DNA from: Sphingobacterium faecium | Lineage (GTDB): Bacteria; Bacteroidota; Bacteroidia; Sphingobacteriales; Sphingobacteriaceae | Reading direction: 5' to 3' | DNA: 64,000 nucleotides | NCBI RefSeq assembly: GCF_003054045.1 | Contig: NZ_QBKH01000001.1 | Location: 682,001-746,000, forward strand | Shown here: positions 18,967-27,565 of the stretch, piece by piece | Layout of the letters: each line of letters begins with the position of its first letter | Position numbering within the stretch: the stretch's first letter is position 1 | Translations under genes and position numbers: made by a program | Notes under the pieces: model-generated | Databases searched by the model: none | The model's input: only the letters and a program-made list of their open reading frames with translations | Told to the model about the DNA's origin: nothing

Positions 18967-19037
18967 AACAAAAATATTGGATTTTATACCTATTTTAAAT
19001 TTTAACTTAGATTATCTCATATCAGAGTTTAAGATTT

Positions 19038-19937
19038 ATGGAACGTCGAATTACATTTTTCACTTTAAAAGAATTTGTTGCTAGACAGATGAATAAGCAA
19101 CAGTATGATGGATTTACTATTTGTCATTTACAGAAAAATAAAATGGCCGATATTAAATTATATGAACCTATGCGCACGGATAGCTTTGGTATGAGTATCA
19201 TATTGAGTGGGAGGCTCCGGATGCGAATTGGTTTTTCAGAGCAAGAGATTCATGGAAACATGATTTTTCTACATTCGCCCACGACAATTATTGAATTTTT
19301 AGACATGGATGATGATCTTGATATGATCACTTTTATGTTTTCCTTAGATTTCGCAAAGAAAATTGGTATTTTTTTTCATGGTAAAACCTCTTTGGATTTC
19401 CTTCTTGATAATTATTTGCGCGTCTTTACCCTACAAGAGCGTGTTATAAAACGATTTGTGATGTATCTTGAGCATCTGCAGGAATTAAATTTGAGCACTA
19501 AACCCAGTAAAAATCAAGCAGAAATCATTAAAAATACTTTTGCCCTATTAAATTATGAAGTTGAATCTGAGTTAATGGGCGACATTGTTAATCGTGTTGT
19601 ACTGAGTGGAAGGAAAGAAAAGTTATGTTTGGATTTTATTACACAGGTGGTCGAACAATTTCAGAGTCATCGATCAGTACAATATTATGCAGATAGCTTA
19701 TTTGTTAGTCGGAAGTATCTCAGCCGAGTAGTCAAAGAAGTTACAGGAATGAGTCCGATGCAAATTATTGAACAAACATTGATGGCAGAAGTTACCGCTA
19801 AATTACGTTCCAATTTTTATTCAATTTCTGAAATTATGCAGCAATTAAACTTTAGTGATTTGCCAACGTTCAGTAAGTTTTTCAAAAAAAATATGGGACA
19901 ATCTCCCATTCTGTACCGTAAAGAATTGTTGAACTAG
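19038..19937 (+). CDS. AraC family transcriptional regulator
   Basis: A 299-residue regulator with an N-terminal cupin-like sensor region (about 20-170; SIILSGRLRMRIGFSEQEIHGNM) and a C-terminal pair of helix-turn-helices (YYADSLFVSRKYLSRVVKEVTGMSP, then SISEIMQQLNFSDLPTFSKFFKKNMGQSP). This layout suits a ligand-responsive activator. It lies after the SusCD operon and before the inositol cluster and could regulate either. Repeated TTGTCAAAA sites upstream suggest autoregulation. Confidence 0.9.
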   Translation: MERRITFFTLKEFVARQMNKQQYDGFTICHLQKNKMADIKLYEPMRTDSFGMSIILSGRLRMRIGFSEQEIHGNMIFLHSPTTIIEFLDMDDDLDMITFMFSLDFAKKIGIFFHGKTSLDFLLDNYLRVFTLQERVIKRFVMYLEHLQELNLSTKPSKNQAEIIKNTFALLNYEVESELMGDIVNRVVLSGRKEKLCLDFITQVVEQFQSHRSVQYYADSLFVSRKYLSRVVKEVTGMSPMQIIEQTLMAEVTAKLRSNFYSISEIMQQLNFSDLPTFSKFFKKNMGQSPILYRKELLN

Positions 19938-20468
19938 GAACCTAGTTACAAAATTTAGTGTCTTTCTGACAAGTAAAAACTCCCTTTAGACTTTTTAACC
20001 TATTTAGTCAGTTGTATATTTGTGGTATTCATGCGAGATGATAAGGGGTTGGTTATTAAATAAATAAGTTTTAACTTATAATCTTTCTTCGTATCTTTAA
20101 GATTGCGAGAGCACCATATATGATAGTTAGATGACCATGCTTTTATCATTAGCATGGTGGGTTAACAATCATATTTTACCAAATTGTGATCAGAATCCAA
20201 AAGTGAAGAATAGTTTAAATCGCATTGAATTTGCAGTCTGGATAGTCTTGATTGCGAAGTAAATGCGCGGTGATGATTGTTTAAAGGGACAGTAATGCTT
20301 GATTATGTTTATTAAAATTGCCTATCAAATCATCAGTATTGAATAAAGAATAGCATTAGTAGTTTATTATATCAGTTTAACGATGTGTCTTGAACAATGG
20401 TGTTTAAGACATTTTGCCCAGATTGAGGTCTGGACAATTGATTTTAATTATCACTTAAAAACAATAAG
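19938..20468. other. Long structured leader upstream of the inositol-lipid cluster
   Basis: No gene seen. A -7-like TATATTTG occurs at 20015-20022 with only a weak -33. Three hairpins follow: ACCATGCT/AGCATGGT (20134-20158), TGTCTTgAACA/TGTTtAAGACA (20385-20411) and CCAGA/TCTGG (20418-20433). If transcription starts near 20030, the operon has a leader of more than 400 nt. A 43-codon reading frame at 20131-20262 lacks coding character. Confidence 0.5.
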
Positions 20469-21794
20469 ATGAAACAGCAAGTGAATGAAGCAAAAGGCAA
20501 GCTTGGTATACTGATTCCAGGTTTGGGTGCAGTAGCCACCACATTGATCGCAGGTGTCGCAGGTATTAACAAAGGTTATTCGAAACCCATCGGTTCAGTT
20601 TCTCAATTGAGTCGCATTCGTTTAGGTAAGCGTACAGAGGATAGAAATCCATTGATTAAGGATTTTGTGCCATTAGCAAAATTGGAGGACATTGTATTTG
20701 GAGGATGGGACGTATATGCAGACAATGTTTATGAGGCCGCTTCAAAAGCTCGTGTATTAGAATCATACCAGTTGGAGCAGGTACGTGAAGAATTGGAGCA
20801 GATTACGCCTATGAAAGCCGTATTTGATCGCAGCTTTGTTAAAAACTTGGATGGCCAGCATATTAAAGAAGGTCTTTCAAGAAGAGCGCTAGCTGATGCG
20901 GTACAAGCGGATATCGAAAATTTTAAAAGGGATAATAACTGTGATCGTATTGTTGTACTTTGGTGTGGGTCAACAGAAAAATATATTGAAGGAGCTGATA
21001 TTTTTAATAGTTTGATGAATTTTGAAGATGCATTAGATCAGGATGACTCTCGTATTCCACCGAGTATGATCTATGCATATGCTGCTCTAAAACAAGGTGC
21101 GCCTTATGTCAATGGAGCACCAAACTTAAGTTGTGATGTTCCTGCAATAGTGGAGCTCGCACATCTTATGCAAGTTGCGATTGCTGGTAAGGATTTCAAA
21201 ACTGGTCAAACTTTAATGAAAACAATTGTTGCTCCAGGCTTGCAAGCTCGTGCATTAGGTGTCGAAGGTTGGTTCTCTACCAATATTTTAGGTAATAGAG
21301 ATGGACTTGTCTTAGATGATCCTGAGAATTTTAAGACAAAAGAAGTTTCAAAATTGAGCGTGCTGGAAGAGATATTAGACGCTAAGAAAAACCCTGAATT
21401 ATATGGCGACTTGTATCATAAAGTTCGCATCAATTATTATCCGCCACATGGTGATAATAAGGAGAGCTGGGACAATATTGATATTTTTGGTTGGATGGGA
21501 TATAAGATGCAGATTAAAATCAATTTCTTATGTAGAGATTCTATTTTAGCCGCTCCTGTAGCATTGGATTTAGCTTTATTTATTGATTTAGCACAACGTG
21601 CGGGTATGTTTGGCATTCAAGAATGGCTGTCTTTCTATTTAAAATCTCCTCAAACAGCACCTGGTTTACGTCCTGAGCACGATATATTTAAGCAATTGAT
21701 CAAGTTGCAAAATACATTACGTCATATGATGGGTGAAGATTTAATCACGCATTTAGGACTTGATTATTATCAGGAACTAGTGGATAGCATGTAA
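20469..21794 (+). CDS. myo-Inositol-phosphate synthase
   Basis: A 441-residue NAD-dependent enzyme converting glucose 6-phosphate to 1L-myo-inositol 1-phosphate (also called inositol 3-phosphate). Visible marks are LIPGLGAVATTLIAG (NAD loop, about residues 14-28), VLWCGSTEKY, GAPNLSCDVPAIVELA, GKDFKTGQT, STNILGNRDG (about 270) and KVRINYYPPHGDNKE with CRDSILAAPVALDLA, all typical of bacterial/eukaryote-like MIPS. It is the first gene of a six-gene same-strand cluster for a polar inositol lipid. A terminator-like hairpin lies between it and the next gene. Confidence 0.94.
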   Translation: MKQQVNEAKGKLGILIPGLGAVATTLIAGVAGINKGYSKPIGSVSQLSRIRLGKRTEDRNPLIKDFVPLAKLEDIVFGGWDVYADNVYEAASKARVLESYQLEQVREELEQITPMKAVFDRSFVKNLDGQHIKEGLSRRALADAVQADIENFKRDNNCDRIVVLWCGSTEKYIEGADIFNSLMNFEDALDQDDSRIPPSMIYAYAALKQGAPYVNGAPNLSCDVPAIVELAHLMQVAIAGKDFKTGQTLMKTIVAPGLQARALGVEGWFSTNILGNRDGLVLDDPENFKTKEVSKLSVLEEILDAKKNPELYGDLYHKVRINYYPPHGDNKESWDNIDIFGWMGYKMQIKINFLCRDSILAAPVALDLALFIDLAQRAGMFGIQEWLSFYLKSPQTAPGLRPEHDIFKQLIKLQNTLRHMMGEDLITHLGLDYYQELVDSM

Positions 21795-21814
21795 GCTATT
21801 ATAAAATTTACATC

Positions 21815-21851
21815 ACCCTTGAAGTATGTTAATAGTACTTTAAGGGTTTTT
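21815..21851 (+). terminator. Terminator hairpin between the MIPS and nucleotidyltransferase genes
   Basis: ACCCTTGAAGTA (21815-21826) pairs with TACTTTAAGGGT (21836-21847) with one G-U pair, then TTTTT. It ends 5 bp before the next ATG, so downstream genes require read-through or a separate promoter. Confidence 0.75.
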
Positions 21852-21855
21852 ATCT

Positions 21856-22575
21856 ATGAAGATGGAGTATGCGATTATAGCTGCTGGAGAGGGGCAGCGA
21901 TTAAAAGATGAAGGATTTCCTAAAGCTAAGCCTTTATTGACTTTGCTCGGTGTTCCTATGATTGAACGCTTGATCAATATTTTTGCTGATCAAGGAGCAA
22001 AGTCGGTATTTATTATTATTAATGAAAAGAATATAGAGTTGCATGAGTTTTTAGTAACACATGAATTTTCTATCCCTATTCATTTGTTGGTTAAGAACAC
22101 TATCAGTTCATTGCACAGTTTTGTTGCTTTGCAAGAAGCCTTCCCCAAGTGGGAGTCTTGTTGTCTAACGACTACAGATACGGTTTTCGATCCTAAAACT
22201 TTTGGACTTTATATTAAAGAGTTTCAACAAGGTAATATGGATGGTTTGTTTGCCGTTACCCCATTCGTGGATGATGAAAGCCCTTTATATGTTACAGTAG
22301 ATCATGATAAGCGTATCGTTTGTTTTTCAGATAACAAATATTCGCAGTCGGTATTTGTATCTGGAGGTATTTATTGTTTACGTAAGGATGCAATGCAAGC
22401 TGCAGAACAGTCTTTGGCTGCTGGAAATCATCGTATGCGAAATTATCAGCGATTCCTTATTGATCGTGGATTGATGATTAAGGCATATCCTTTCGAAAAG
22501 ATCGTAGATGTTGATCATCTTCATGATCAGGAAACTGCTGAATACTTTTTACTTGAACAAAAGATACGATCATGA
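21856..22575 (+). CDS. Nucleotidyltransferase, probably inositol-phosphate cytidylyltransferase
   Basis: A 239-residue NTP-transferase (GT-A-like Rossmann) protein. AAGEGQRLKDEGFPKAKPLL at residues 8-27 is the nucleotide-binding signature (GxGxRL...PK), TTTDTVFD (about 105) supplies a metal-binding Asp, and VDVDHLHD sits near the C-terminus. Relatives activate sugar or polyol phosphates with CTP, UTP or GTP. Between MIPS and a CDP-alcohol phosphatidyltransferase, the simplest inference is CTP:inositol-phosphate cytidylyltransferase making CDP-inositol, as in archaeal di-myo-inositol-phosphate synthesis. Nucleotide and substrate are inferred, not seen. The stop overlaps the next start (ATGA). 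Confidence 0.78.
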   Translation: MKMEYAIIAAGEGQRLKDEGFPKAKPLLTLLGVPMIERLINIFADQGAKSVFIIINEKNIELHEFLVTHEFSIPIHLLVKNTISSLHSFVALQEAFPKWESCCLTTTDTVFDPKTFGLYIKEFQQGNMDGLFAVTPFVDDESPLYVTVDHDKRIVCFSDNKYSQSVFVSGGIYCLRKDAMQAAEQSLAAGNHRMRNYQRFLIDRGLMIKAYPFEKIVDVDHLHDQETAEYFLLEQKIRS

Positions 22576-23480
22576 GAGTTTACGGAATTTTGAGAAAAAA
22601 TGACTTTTCTCCCAATCACATCAATAATGATATTGCTATTTTTCAGCAAGTAATCCGTTTATTGGAAAAAGAGGGAGTGAGTATTACCGTCGTGACCGAA
22701 GATGAGTTTTTGGTGATGAAAGATTATGATAAAGAACCCATCATTACGATGGGTCGATCAAAAGCTTTGGTGCATCGTCTTCAAGAGCTAGAGCGCACTG
22801 GTGTTTTAATTATCAATTCTTCATTTGGTATTCAAAACTGCTATCGGACTCTTATGACTACCAAATTGGTTGAGAATCAAGTACCGTATCCAGACAGCAT
22901 CATTGTCGATACACATGCAGATATCGAAGCTATATTTGATATTTTGGGAGTACCCGGTATCTGGATAAAAAGAGGAGATTTTCATGCCGTTCATAAAGAA
23001 GATGTTAGTTTCGTGAGTACAAAAGCTGAGGCGAATAATATTTTAGCGGAGTATGCGCTACGTGGTATTGAAGAAGCTGTCATATCACAGCATCTTTTTG
23101 GGGATTTAGTTAAGTTTTATGCAGTAGCTGGAACCGATTTTTTCTACTGGTTTCATCCTTATGATCTAAATCATCATAAATATGCGGCATATGAACAAAT
23201 TAATGGTGCTACTGCACATTATGCATTTGATGAGGCAGCGTTACAGCAGACTGCGCAACTTGCTGCCGAAGTATTAGGAGTTTCTATTTATGGCGGGGAT
23301 GCTATCATACATGCTGATGGAAATTTTCATATTATAGATTTAAATGATTGGCCGAGCTTTGCACCTTGTAGAGAAGTAGCTGCAGAAGCAATAGCCACCC
23401 ATATTTTTAATAAATTTTCTGACTTTATAGATCTAACGATCTTTCAGGAAGAAGATAAAGATGATATTAATTATGTCTAA
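22572..23480 (+). CDS. ATP-grasp family protein of unknown role in the inositol-lipid operon
   Basis: A 302-residue ATP-grasp-type protein resembling RimK/D-ala-ligase-like kinases and ligases. A pre-ATP-grasp region at about residues 1-85 is followed by INSSFGIQNCYRTLMTTKLVENQ, GIWIKRGDFHA (phosphate-loop/Lys region, about 135), ISQHLFGDLVKFYAVAG and, near residue 255, GGDAIIHADGNFHIIDLNDWPSF, where Asp and Asn fit the Mg-ATP ligands. It has no signal or membrane segment. It overlaps both neighbours, so it belongs to the inositol-lipid pathway. It might phosphorylate inositol (the ITPK family also uses this fold) or attach an amino acid. The actual reaction is unknown. Confidence 0.75.
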   Translation: MRVYGILRKNDFSPNHINNDIAIFQQVIRLLEKEGVSITVVTEDEFLVMKDYDKEPIITMGRSKALVHRLQELERTGVLIINSSFGIQNCYRTLMTTKLVENQVPYPDSIIVDTHADIEAIFDILGVPGIWIKRGDFHAVHKEDVSFVSTKAEANNILAEYALRGIEEAVISQHLFGDLVKFYAVAGTDFFYWFHPYDLNHHKYAAYEQINGATAHYAFDEAALQQTAQLAAEVLGVSIYGGDAIIHADGNFHIIDLNDWPSFAPCREVAAEAIATHIFNKFSDFIDLTIFQEEDKDDINYV

Positions 23481-24408
23481 ATCAGAGCATACATTATTTG
23501 AACAATCACTTAAGTCAAATGATACGGAAGAGAGGATCGACATTTGGTTTTATAGACCTATAGGTTACCGTATTGCCAAAGTTTGTGCGAGTTTAGGAGT
23601 GACCCCCAATGCGGTTACAATCACCAGTATATTTTTTGGGGTGGGTGCGGGCATATTATTTTATTTTTCTGAATTGTGGATTAATGTTATCGGTATGCTC
23701 CTATTAATATTTGCAAATTCTTTAGATAGTGCAGATGGTCAATTAGCTCGAATGACAGATAATAAAAGTCGATTTGGAAGAATTTTAGATGGATTTGCTG
23801 GTGATTTTTGGTTTGCAGCGATTCACATTGCCCTGTGTTTGCGTTCTATGAATGAAGGCTGGACAGCTTGGATATGGGTACCTGGAGTATTGGCAGGAGT
23901 ATCTCATGTATTCCAATCGGCCATGGCTGATTATTATCGAAATGTACATCTGTATTTCATAAAGGGGAAAGCAGGTAGCGAACTGGATAACTCAACCGAA
24001 CTTCAAGCAGAGCTGGACAAAATGAGTTGGAAGAAAGACTTTTTTCAAAAATTCGTACTCAATGGCTATAAGAATTATACCAAAATGCAAGAAAACTTTT
24101 CTCCAAAGCTTCAACACTTACTGCATCTGGTCAAGTTTAAATTTCAAGATCAGATGCCGGCAACCTTTATACATGCTTTTCGTCTTCGTAATAGACCCTT
24201 GATGAAATATACCAATATTGTCCAGTTTAACACCCGCGTACTGTTTTTGTTCTTGTGGATTTTTATTGATCAGGTATGGTTATATTTCTTTTTTGATATG
24301 TTCATTCTCAACCCCATTCTGATTTATATGTGTAACAGGCAAGAACGAGTAAGTGCTCATTTTATCGATCAGTTAGCATCATCCAAATACGATGAAGAAC
24401 ATATATAA
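23461..24408 (+). CDS. CDP-alcohol phosphatidyltransferase family membrane protein
   Basis: A 315-residue integral membrane enzyme. The family motif is plain at about residues 88-115: DSADGQLAR, eight residues, GRILDGFAGD. The canonical pattern is DxxDGxxAR-x8-GxxxDxxxD. Here the last Asp is one residue late and Gly occupies its usual place. Several hydrophobic helices surround it and more follow at the C-terminus. By context it should transfer phosphoinositol, or a diacylglycerol or ceramide phosphate, to build an inositol phospholipid. ATG at 23461 overlaps the ATP-grasp gene by 20 bp; the downstream ATG at 23473 (MSKSEH) is an alternative start. Confidence 0.85.
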   Translation: MILIMSKSEHTLFEQSLKSNDTEERIDIWFYRPIGYRIAKVCASLGVTPNAVTITSIFFGVGAGILFYFSELWINVIGMLLLIFANSLDSADGQLARMTDNKSRFGRILDGFAGDFWFAAIHIALCLRSMNEGWTAWIWVPGVLAGVSHVFQSAMADYYRNVHLYFIKGKAGSELDNSTELQAELDKMSWKKDFFQKFVLNGYKNYTKMQENFSPKLQHLLHLVKFKFQDQMPATFIHAFRLRNRPLMKYTNIVQFNTRVLFLFLWIFIDQVWLYFFFDMFILNPILIYMCNRQERVSAHFIDQLASSKYDEEHI

Positions 24409-25387
24409 GCTGCTTTTCTTGATCATCGGAGTGATCACGCTTGGGTATATGATCTATAATATTGGTACAACTAAAATTTGGATCAATATGCTACAGACAG
24501 GTTGGTGGTTTGTTCCCATTTTACTTAGTTGGTTGATCATTTATATCATAAATGCGGTGGCTTTTAAGGCTATTATTGAAGAACCTACTGTTCCTGGAAC
24601 TAAATTGCCATTTCTTAAGATCTTACAGTTGACAGTAAGTGGTTATAGTATTAATTATGTCACTCCCTTTGTGGCATTAGGAGGGGAACCCTATCGGATT
24701 ATGGAATTAAAACCATTCTTAGGTGAAGCAAAAGCTAGCTCCTCAGTATTGTTGTACGGCATGGTGCATATCCTATCCCATATTGTTTTTTGGTTGGTTT
24801 CTATCGTTTTGATTTTAGCAGTACTTCCATTAAGTCCGACTATGTTGATACTATGCTTATTTATTTTATTATTTGGACTGGGTATCTTTTGGTCATTCTC
24901 GAAAATTTATAAACGTGGATTTACGGTAACTATATTACGGTTTTTACAGAGAATACCGCTTGTTGGAAAATATGCGTGTACATTTTACAAAGAAAAAAGA
25001 ACAGTCTTAGAGCATATTGATGAACAAATCAAAGATTTATATGCGCAGCGCAGATCTCAATTTTTTAAAGCTTTGTTTTTGGAATTCTTTGCTCGGGTTA
25101 TTGGTTGTGCAGAACTTTATTTTATTGCTATAGCACTCGGTTTAGACATGAATATCATTCAAGCATTTATCGTTAGTTCAGGCTCATCTTTATTTGCAAA
25201 TCTCATCTTCTTTTTACCGATGCAATTAGGTACTCGTGAAGGAGGGTTAGCGATGGCGGTGACCAGCATTGGATTTTCAGCTTCAGTTGGTATATTTATG
25301 GGGCTAGCAACGCGTATACGTGAGATTATATGGATCGCAATAGGATTGATTTGGATGAGTATTGTGCGTAAAGAAATCATGAATTAA
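24392..25387 (+). CDS. Flippase-like LPG_synthase_TM membrane protein
   Basis: A 331-residue polytopic protein of the lysylphosphatidylglycerol-synthase transmembrane (UPF0104/TIGR00374) family, with about 8 hydrophobic helices and the conserved C-terminal block FFLPMQLGTREGGL (about residues 270-283). The MprF-like catalytic domain is absent. The family is associated with lipid flipping or lipid-linked transfer, so in this operon it may move the inositol lipid across the membrane. It overlaps the phosphatidyltransferase gene by 17 bp and is followed after 1 bp by the HAD gene, which points to translational coupling. Confidence 0.83.
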   Translation: MKNIYKLLFLIIGVITLGYMIYNIGTTKIWINMLQTGWWFVPILLSWLIIYIINAVAFKAIIEEPTVPGTKLPFLKILQLTVSGYSINYVTPFVALGGEPYRIMELKPFLGEAKASSSVLLYGMVHILSHIVFWLVSIVLILAVLPLSPTMLILCLFILLFGLGIFWSFSKIYKRGFTVTILRFLQRIPLVGKYACTFYKEKRTVLEHIDEQIKDLYAQRRSQFFKALFLEFFARVIGCAELYFIAIALGLDMNIIQAFIVSSGSSLFANLIFFLPMQLGTREGGLAMAVTSIGFSASVGIFMGLATRIREIIWIAIGLIWMSIVRKEIMN

Positions 25388-25388
25388 T

Positions 25389-26093
25389 ATGAAGAAAATA
25401 ACAGGTATAAAAGGATTGTTGTTTGATTATGGCGGAACATTAGATACCAATGGAAGACATTGGGCTGCTGTTTTTTTTGAACAATATCAGCAACATGGGA
25501 TAGCGATCGAAAAGTCAGATTTCTATAACGCTTATGTGTATGCTGAACGTAAAATGGCAACACAGCCCATTATCAAATCTTCTTTTAATTTTAAAGATGT
25601 ACTTTTTGCAAAGATTAATGCTCAGTTTGAGTATCTAAAAATGGAAACTTTAGTTGATAGTGTAGGTCTACAAATTGTGAATGCTTGTGATACGATTGTA
25701 TTAGATTGTTTGAAAAGAATACAACCTTTATTAGCATCTTTATCTATACAGTATAAGATGGTTATGGTATCCAATTTTTATGGCAATTTAGCGCATGTAT
25801 TAAACGATTATGACATGACGCACTACTTTCAAACGGTTATTGAATCTTCACTTGTAGGGGTTCGTAAACCTAATCCTGAAATCTATACATTAGGAGTTGC
25901 AGCTTTAGGATTACCTGCAGATGCGTGTGTTGTTATTGGAGATTCCTACACGAAAGATATGGAGCCGGGCAAGGTAAATGGTTGTAAAACAATATGGCTG
26001 AATGGTGATGGTTGGGAAGAAAAACCACTTATTTCAACAGAAGCTGCCGATTTTATGATTACTGATATACTACAACTGAAGAAGTTGTTATAG
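25389..26093 (+). CDS. HAD family hydrolase (putative phosphatase of the inositol-lipid operon)
   Basis: A 234-residue HAD hydrolase. FDYGGTLDT (residues 13-21) holds the nucleophile Asp, but the +2 position is Gly instead of the general-acid Asp of DxD phosphatases. MVMVSNFYG is motif II, GVRKPNPEIY carries the motif III Lys, and IGDSYTKDMEPG is motif IV. A helical cap lies between motifs I and II. It may dephosphorylate an inositol phosphate or lipid phosphate intermediate, but the missing Asp leaves its phosphatase activity uncertain. Last gene of the operon. Confidence 0.82.
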   Translation: MKKITGIKGLLFDYGGTLDTNGRHWAAVFFEQYQQHGIAIEKSDFYNAYVYAERKMATQPIIKSSFNFKDVLFAKINAQFEYLKMETLVDSVGLQIVNACDTIVLDCLKRIQPLLASLSIQYKMVMVSNFYGNLAHVLNDYDMTHYFQTVIESSLVGVRKPNPEIYTLGVAALGLPADACVVIGDSYTKDMEPGKVNGCKTIWLNGDGWEEKPLISTEAADFMITDILQLKKLL

Positions 26094-26120
26094 TAATTTC
26101 TTCAATTGTAAGTTTCCATA

Positions 26121-26177
26121 AACCTCCATCATTATTGGCTTTCTTGATTTATGCCGATTTTGTTTGGAGGTTCTTTT
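26121..26177 (+). terminator. Possible terminator after the inositol-lipid operon
   Basis: AACCTCCA (26121-26128) pairs with TGGAGGTT (26165-26172), then CTTTTT. The 36-nt interior has its own ATTGGC/GCCGAT stem. The long loop makes it less certain than other terminators here. Confidence 0.55.
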
Positions 26178-26660
26178 TGTGCTGAATATTTTCCTACTAT
26201 CTCTCTGTTATTTTAATTTCATCAATAAATCATGATGAACTTTTATTGATCATCTTGTGAATCAAGGATCGACTTATATGATTGTTTATCTATTTATAAG
26301 TCGTTATGTTGTTTTTTGATTCTCTATTATTTTAAGGTCATTCCAGTTCTGTATCAAACGAGTTATTGGTTACACCTTTTAAATAATGGGTAAAAGTGTT
26401 GCATGGATACTATTCGTTATATTTATGAATTAACCATTGGAATGGGAGTAAAAGCAACTGTATCGTAGTTGTATGAGAACACTAATATTAATAAAGGCAA
26501 CGCAAAAACAGATTGTAAACTATGGGTAGGTTAGTCTCTTCATACTTTTAGCGCAGATTCAACCACTCAGATCATTCAAAATTTAATTGAAGAAGTAAGT
26601 GCATTAGCTTAAGAAAGAAATGTGGTTAAAAGGAGATAGTAAAGAAATTAGAATAAAAAA

Positions 26661-26683
26661 ATGCGCAGTTTTTGGCTGCGCAT
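26661..26683 (-). terminator. rpoD terminator
   Basis: ATGCGCAG (26661-26668) pairs with CTGCGCAT (26676-26683). On the minus strand it is followed by a T-rich run, placing it about 20 nt after the rpoD stop. Confidence 0.85.
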
Positions 26684-26704
26684 CTAAAAATACTGTTAAT
26701 ACTA

Positions 26705-27565
26705 TTAACCTAAATAAGATTTTAAAATCTTGCTACGAGAAGTATGACGTAAGCGTTGTAAAGCTTTGTCTTTAATCTGGCGGACACGTTCACGAGTCAG
26801 GTTGAATTTTTCACCGATTTCCTCTAAAGATAATTGGTGGTTTGATCCAAGACCGAAAAATAAAACGATTATTTCTCTTTCGCGCTCTGTCAATGTAGAA
26901 AGTGAACGTCTAATTTCCTCCGATAAAGACTCATCGATAAGGGAACTGTCAGTATCTGGGTCATGATTCTCTAATACGTCTAATAGGGTGTTTTCTTCCC
27001 CTTGCACGAATGGTGCATCCATAGAGACATGTCTTCCCGAATTACTTAAAGTATCCGAAACTTTATCGACTGTTGTTTCAAGGATGTCCGCTAACTCTTC
27101 TGGTGAAGGTTCGCGTTCATACTCTTGTTCTAATTTAGAGAATGCTTTACTAATTTTACTTAATGAACCCACTTGGTTCAAAGGTAAACGCACAATACGA
27201 GATTGCTCCGCAATAGCTTGAAGAATTGATTGACGAATCCACCATACCGCATAAGAGATAAATTTAAAACCCTTAGTTTCGTCAAAACGTTTAGCTGCTT
27301 TTATTAAGCCCAAGTTGCCTTCGTTGATTAAATCACCTAAGGTTAATCCTTGATTCTGATATTGTTTTGCTACAGATACGACGAAACGTAAGTTAGTTTT
27401 AGTCAATTTCTCCAAGGCAACTTGGTCACCTTCACGAATACGTTGTGCTAATTCAACTTCTTCTTCTGCTGTTATTAAGTCTACTTTACCAATTTCGTGT
27501 AAATACTTGTCTAACGACTGTGACTCACGATTGGTAATCGATTGTGTAATTTTGAGCTGTCTCAT
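26705..27565 (-). CDS. rpoD: Primary RNA polymerase sigma factor RpoD/SigA
   Basis: A 286-residue group-1 sigma factor with the short form typical of Bacteroidota: no region 1.1, starting at region 1.2 ([25 protein letters not shown]). Region 2 has [36 protein letters not shown], region 3 [19 protein letters not shown] and region 4 [15 protein letters not shown] with [27 protein letters not shown]. It recognises the TTTG/TAnnTTTG promoters seen in this window. A -7-like TATTTTTG lies on the minus strand at 27609-27602, with no clear -33. A terminator follows. Confidence 0.97.

Follow-up and report, generated by a model that had tools for sequence, protein, structure and literature searches.

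What does an ATP-grasp enzyme do within an operon for inositol lipids? The question is raised by the window, the whole stretch of 64,000 nucleotides of Sphingobacterium faecium DNA that was analysed, which carries genes in the order MIPS-NTP-GRASP-PTRANS-FLIP-HAD (Table 1), with the ATP-grasp gene overlapping the genes on both sides. A putative alternative inositol-lipid cluster has been predicted from B. vulgatus (Heaver et al. 2022, PMC9246714), in which BVU_RS13095 encodes the NTP protein, RS13105 the phosphotransferase and RS13115 the HAD protein. Roles were given only to these three proteins, with CDP-inositol as the proposed intermediate (PMC9246714). B. vulgatus and P. veroralis, both carriers of such a cluster, make plain phosphoinositol dihydroceramide (PMC9246714).

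The published cluster resembles that of the window in that genes for MIPS, NTP, phosphotransferase and HAD lie together in the same order, with LPG-synthase-TM nearby. The same set (NTP, PTRANS and HAD near MIPS) was present in B. finegoldii and P. nigrescens as well as in the window. The two differ in the gene between NTP and phosphotransferase, which is conserved in the named gut species and absent from the published scheme. Judged from gene order, BVU_RS13100 is presumably this ATP-grasp gene. The main text of PMC9246714 makes no mention of an ATP-grasp protein, a ligase or an aminotransferase, a later review repeats the scheme of Heaver et al. without the ATP-grasp gene, and the literature found gave no biochemical confirmation of this second inositol-lipid pathway of Bacteroidota.

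The operon and its ATP-grasp gene

The ATP-grasp ORF is intact and has an ATG start. As the sequence-only reading had described, it overlaps its upstream neighbour by an ATGA (the four bases 22572-22575 at its 5' end, shared with the NTP-transferase stop) and its 3' end lies inside the PTRANS ORF, the overlap being 20 bp when PTRANS starts at 23461. If PTRANS starts instead at its second ATG, the overlap is 8 bp; this may be the true start because relatives do not have the extra MILI- residues.

Table 1. Features of the inositol-lipid operon and codons of invariant residues in the ATP-grasp gene (positions in the window)
Feature	Position	Strand	Basis or remark
MIPS	20469..21794	+	Pfam PF07994 (E = 5e-99) and PF01658 (E = 1e-33)
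13-bp hairpin with T-rich tail, between MIPS and NTP	21815..21847	+	Consensus scan only
Nucleotidyltransferase (NTP), likely a CTP:inositol-phosphate cytidylyltransferase	21856..22575	+	Pfam NTP_transf_3
ATP-grasp protein (GRASP), 302 aa	22572..23480	+	ORF call; fold model; family alignment
Lys133 codon	22968..22970	+	WIKRGDxHAxHxEDV motif; presumed ATP-binding lysine; 60/60
Lys181 codon	23112..23114	+	GDxVKFY motif; invariant, 60/60
Asp243 codon	23298..23300	+	YGGD; presumed metal ligand; invariant, 60/60
Asp256-x-Asn258 codons	23337..23345	+	IDLNDWPSF; metal-binding DxN; invariant, 60/60
CDP-alcohol phosphotransferase (PTRANS)	23461..24408 (start may be 23473)	+	Pfam PF01066 (E = 4e-12)
LPG_synthase_TM/flippase-like membrane protein (FLIP)	24392..25387	+	Pfam PF03706 (E = 2e-22)
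HAD-family hydrolase, candidate phosphatase closing the pathway	25389..26093	+	Pfam Hydrolase (E = 1e-14)

The best match of the NTP family profile among solved structures was 4jd0 (E = 2e-11), the inositol-1-phosphate cytidylyltransferase of T. maritima (PMC12275187), and this likeness supports CDP-inositol chemistry in the operon. PTRANS has the motif DxxDGxxAR...GxxxDxxxG, in which the fourth Asp, the usual catalytic base, is replaced by Gly in 53 of 55 sequences; most of the distant comparison phosphotransferases keep it. The HAD protein retains the nucleophile Asp13 and motifs II to IV, and its motif I reads DxGGT in every sequence compared (54/54). As the second motif-I Asp, the usual acid-base, is missing, phosphatase activity on an alkyl phosphate would not be assured.

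The strong hairpin between MIPS and NTP, directly before the NTP gene, is a possible partial terminator or attenuator that would split MIPS from the downstream genes. The scan found hairpins with a T-tail at 8 sites when 3.9 were expected. No Rfam family was detected in 19000-27000, and the promoter scan gave nothing above chance.

Linkage across Bacteroidota

Relatives were taken from whole-genome searches, a search for relatives among genome contigs having given only one close Sphingobacterium locus. The ATP-grasp gene was found in 15 genomes of a phylum sample of 395, and further searches in three families brought the loci fetched and annotated to 55 in 54 genomes besides the window (56 loci in 55 genomes with it). 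In all 55 fetched loci an NTP gene either adjoined the ATP-grasp gene or belonged to its cluster, and the core genes of each locus lay on a single strand; in some clusters, Mla transporter genes lie between NTP and ATP-grasp. Because the order NTP-ATP-grasp recurs in 55/55 fetched loci and in the window, always on one strand, chance is excluded and the ORF is real.

The ATP-grasp gene was accompanied by PTRANS in 54 of the 55 loci, by HAD in 53 and by FLIP in 52. Where PTRANS or HAD is missing, either the end of a contig truncates the locus (L189) or the genes lie elsewhere: genome G394 has PTRANS, HAD and MIPS at a second locus (L101). The reverse test gave the same picture: PTRANS scored above 400 bits in 15 of the 395 genomes, 14 of which have the ATP-grasp gene; the remaining one, G385, has a cluster truncated by the end of its contig. 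Three looser MIPS-NTP-PTRANS clusters without an ATP-grasp gene (L105, L106 and L114) had no HAD gene in the 20 kb fetched either, and possibly belong to a Rhodothermus-type ether inositol-lipid route; these three loci are the whole of the comparison group without ATP-grasp, and their NTP and PTRANS proteins are much more distant.

The order NTP, ATP-grasp, PTRANS, HAD was found in Bacteroides finegoldii, Parabacteroides distasonis and Prevotella nigrescens, in all of which the ATP-grasp gene is annotated as a hypothetical protein, and also in Phocaeicola massiliensis. The linkage of the ATP-grasp gene to NTP, PTRANS and HAD bears out its earlier assignment to the inositol-lipid pathway, which occurs in both gut and environmental Bacteroidota. 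The published three-enzyme version of that pathway, including that of common gut species, appears to be short of one strictly conserved fourth enzyme. The pathway now has a defined gene set, and its reconstitution without the ATP-grasp protein is predicted to fail.

A DUF5686/carboxypeptidase-regulatory-like protein recurs beside the cluster in distant genomes (L022:11568-14162, L136:3295-5847 and L138:11912-14449).

Fold and relatives of the ATP-grasp protein

The ATP-grasp protein of the window matched no Pfam family at E ≤ 0.01, and all its NCBIfam matches were sub-threshold (rimK_fam, TIGR00768, 36.3 bits against a cut-off of 143.4). These weak single-sequence matches are to ligases, namely rimK_fam (4e-9), MptN and LysX. 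The ITPK model PF05770 gave no match at E ≤ 10 in the protein's own genome; one of 21 ATP-grasp family members matched it, at E = 0.005 only, which is short of the cut-off. The Pfam scans gave no match to the D-Ala ligase models, so that the likeness to D-Ala ligase is one of fold only.

The AlphaFold2 (AF2) model of the window protein (pLDDT 87.8, pTM 0.86) matched ATP-grasp enzymes in Foldseek throughout the matches listed, with ArgX (3vpb) at the top. The model of a paralogue from locus L034 (pLDDT 92) likewise has the ATP-grasp fold; PsnB, D-Ala ligase, ArgX, DcsG, RimK and plant ITPK1 were near-equal matches to it (E = 1.6e-14 to 1.7e-12), and four ITPK1 entries were among its top 50 fold matches. 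The top viral fold match was an ITPK homologue. The fold, the invariant Lys and the C-terminal D...(D/E)xN metal site are all those of the ATP-grasp superfamily, and by predicted structure the window protein is an ATP-grasp enzyme, as had been proposed from the sequence. The structural comparison with ITPK, RimK and D-Ala ligase, suggested as a check of that proposal, did not by itself separate the three. It gave only ligases for the window model and a mixture of ITPK and ligases for the paralogue model, with scores for PsnB, D-Ala ligase and ArgX that equalled or exceeded those of ITPK, and fold was dropped as a discriminator between kinase and ligase.

Sequence profiles gave a different ranking. 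A profile of the family searched against PDB found Arabidopsis ITPK4 first (E = 1.8e-6), then PsnB (3e-5), Entamoeba ITPK (5e-4), human ITPK1 (3e-3) and RimK (about 1); a broader family profile again placed ITPK4 first. The link to ITPK suggested by the sequence-only reading is thus the best sequence-profile match, and it lies mainly in the C-terminal 100 residues, the metal-binding part. Among 60 family sequences, Lys133, Arg134, Lys181, Asp243, Asp256, Asn258 and Trp260 are invariant, and His138 (59/60) and His141 (58/60) are nearly so. These two lie in the loop that follows the presumed ATP-binding Lys, where ITPK has a nucleotide-contacting His but where the alignment with ITPK is unreliable. 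The metal motif is DxN in all 60 members, as in the aligned ITPKs, and ExN in the aligned ligases (NELN in ArgX, LELN in PsnB).

The family shares with ITPK the ATP-grasp fold and the C-terminal FGxD...VDxN...PSF region. It differs in falling below the PF05770 cut-off, in its length of about 280-300 aa and in N-terminal motifs of its own (RxxxxSPNHxxND and WxKRGDxHAxHxEDV). In its catalytic site, then, the protein resembles an inositol phosphate kinase, yet it belongs to a separate family.

It could instead be a carboxylate ligase like RimK or D-Ala ligase, which would activate a carboxylate as acyl phosphate and couple it, through an amine or hydroxyl, to the inositol head group or a lipid precursor. 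The product would be either an inositol lipid with an aminoacyl group or an intermediate that the pathway needs. RimK, LysX and ArgX are like the window family in size, in overall fold and in the weak family-model matches, and the predicted fold is nearest to ArgX, PsnB, D-Ala ligase and RimK. The family nevertheless falls far below the NCBIfam cut-offs for these ligases, has DxN rather than ExN in all 60 members, and lies outside any amino-acid or peptide context. With ITPK ranked first by the sequence profiles, and with unmodified phosphoinositol dihydroceramide as the product of known producers that carry the cluster (PMC9246714), a ligase is an unlikely reading.

Clusters with a PfkB kinase

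The place of the ATP-grasp protein in the pathway is indicated by one family (with the genera g32 and g238, among others) in which the cluster is without MIPS and a PfkB kinase gene directly follows HAD in all complete loci. A PfkB kinase gene lies beside the cluster at L022:6113-7048, L182-L201, L130, L132, L135 and L139. Among 21 genomes of the family, MIPS was of eukaryote type in 2 and of actinobacterial type in 4, and 15 had neither.

The cluster PfkB matched TM0415 at E = 6e-40. TM0415 is a myo-inositol kinase of the PfkB family, as is the T. kodakarensis enzyme (PMC5931981). The cluster PfkB has the four inositol-binding residues of TM0415 (D11, N78, Q141 and R145), which it keeps together with the catalytic D234 in 16 of 16 sequences. 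It is probably ATP-dependent, because the PPi-binding R229 and R232 are not conserved. The cluster PfkB, a protein distinct from the ATP-grasp enzyme, is likely a myo-inositol kinase that stands in for MIPS, which would make it an alternative entry point to the pathway.

The source of inositol in these clusters switches from synthesis to salvage, yet ATP-grasp, NTP, PTRANS and HAD remain. Since the ATP-grasp gene persists when PfkB replaces MIPS, its product probably acts after formation of the inositol monophosphate.

These clusters also bear on a scheme in which HAD, as an inositol monophosphatase, would turn Ins3P into free inositol, the ATP-grasp protein would act as an inositol 1-kinase to give Ins1P, and NTP would activate Ins1P. 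Such a scheme explains HAD and ATP-grasp, which are conserved together, as a pair that inverts stereochemistry, and ATP-grasp inositol phosphate kinases do exist (ITPK). It was favoured at first and downgraded once the PfkB clusters were found; clusters fed by PfkB retain both ATP-grasp and HAD, and in them a second inositol kinase would be superfluous unless it made a different product. An inositol 1-kinase is now the least probable of the roles considered.

A loss of MIPS in G502, G461, G479 and G464 was also considered and rejected, as these genomes have an actinobacterial-type MIPS elsewhere. Among window-family genomes without a eukaryote-type MIPS, L147:1003-2202 encodes an actinobacterial-type (mycothiol INO1-like) MIPS.

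A candidate inositol-phosphate kinase

The role tentatively favoured here, at somewhat less than even confidence, is that of an enzyme which the CDP-inositol route to PI or inositol-phosphoceramide in Bacteroidota cannot do without, most likely an inositol-phosphate kinase that adds a transient phosphate. MIPS, or the PfkB inositol kinase in relatives, would supply Ins3P, to which the ATP-grasp protein would add a second phosphate to give an inositol bisphosphate. NTP would convert this to CDP-inositol phosphate, PTRANS would move the phospho-inositol-phosphate to the lipid acceptor, and the extra phosphate would then be taken off, perhaps by HAD, so that the end product is PI or PI-ceramide of the ordinary kind.

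This detour may have a stereochemical reason, for which the known stereochemistry of MIPS is the basis. Direct CDP-activation of Ins3P would give a D-3 lipid linkage; if position 1 were phosphorylated and activated and the 3-phosphate then removed, the linkage would be D-1. Arg193 (55/56) and Arg195 (56/56) of NTP, both absent from eight NTPs of clusters without ATP-grasp, would fit a substrate that carries an extra phosphate. The sub-threshold NCBIfam matches to ligases, the ligase folds that score at least as well as ITPK, the confinement of the ITPK profile likeness mainly to the C-terminal 100 residues, the small and distant comparison group without ATP-grasp and the DxGGT motif of HAD speak against the kinase model. 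If the model is true, the family would be a bacterial ATP-grasp inositol-phosphate kinase outside the described ITPK family.

The added phosphate might instead be kept, with a stable polyphosphorylated inositol lipid or a soluble inositol polyphosphate as a minor or regulated end product. Polyphosphorylated lipids can escape non-acidic extraction, so that such species may have been missed; the ITPK-like motif is consistent with them, and the tandem ATP-grasp copies of four clusters could add several phosphates. The ATP-grasp gene goes strictly one to one with the core genes, which suggests a main-line step, not an optional decoration, and producers that carry the cluster are not reported to make any such lipid (PMC9246714); a polyphosphorylated end product is thus very unlikely. 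The sequence-only reading had raised a polyphosphorylated or aminoacylated head group, which would be new for the phylum. As a permanent group this is probably wrong, because carriers of the cluster make ordinary PI-dihydroceramide (PMC9246714), and a phosphorylated inositol lipid is not new to the phylum, since PIP-DAG is a known intermediate in B. thetaiotaomicron (PMC9246714).

Clusters with an aminotransferase

Nine clusters (L027, L028, L029, L032-L036 and L116), belonging to another class of the phylum than the window, also encode a class-III aminotransferase and an inositol-2-dehydrogenase-like (IolG-like) Gfo/Idh protein, always as a pair (9/9). This pair could supply the amine for a ligase; the ATP-grasp gene, however, is in all clusters and the aminotransferase and dehydrogenase genes are in these nine only. 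As a guess, these clusters make an amino-inositol head group; a literature search for amino-inositol lipids turned up nothing relevant. The wider proposal, also unlikely when taken as a whole, is of a bacterial inositol-phosphate kinase family whose bisphosphate product would be CTP-activated, transferred and trimmed to fix the point of attachment, together with an amino-inositol lipid made in one branch by the same core enzymes with tandem ATP-grasp proteins, aminotransferase and dehydrogenase.

Several of the nine clusters also have a Mla-type ABC transporter (MlaE/MlaF/MlaD). The tandem ATP-grasp copies are those of L027, L028, L034 and L035; copies of one type group together in a clade supported at 96/99.
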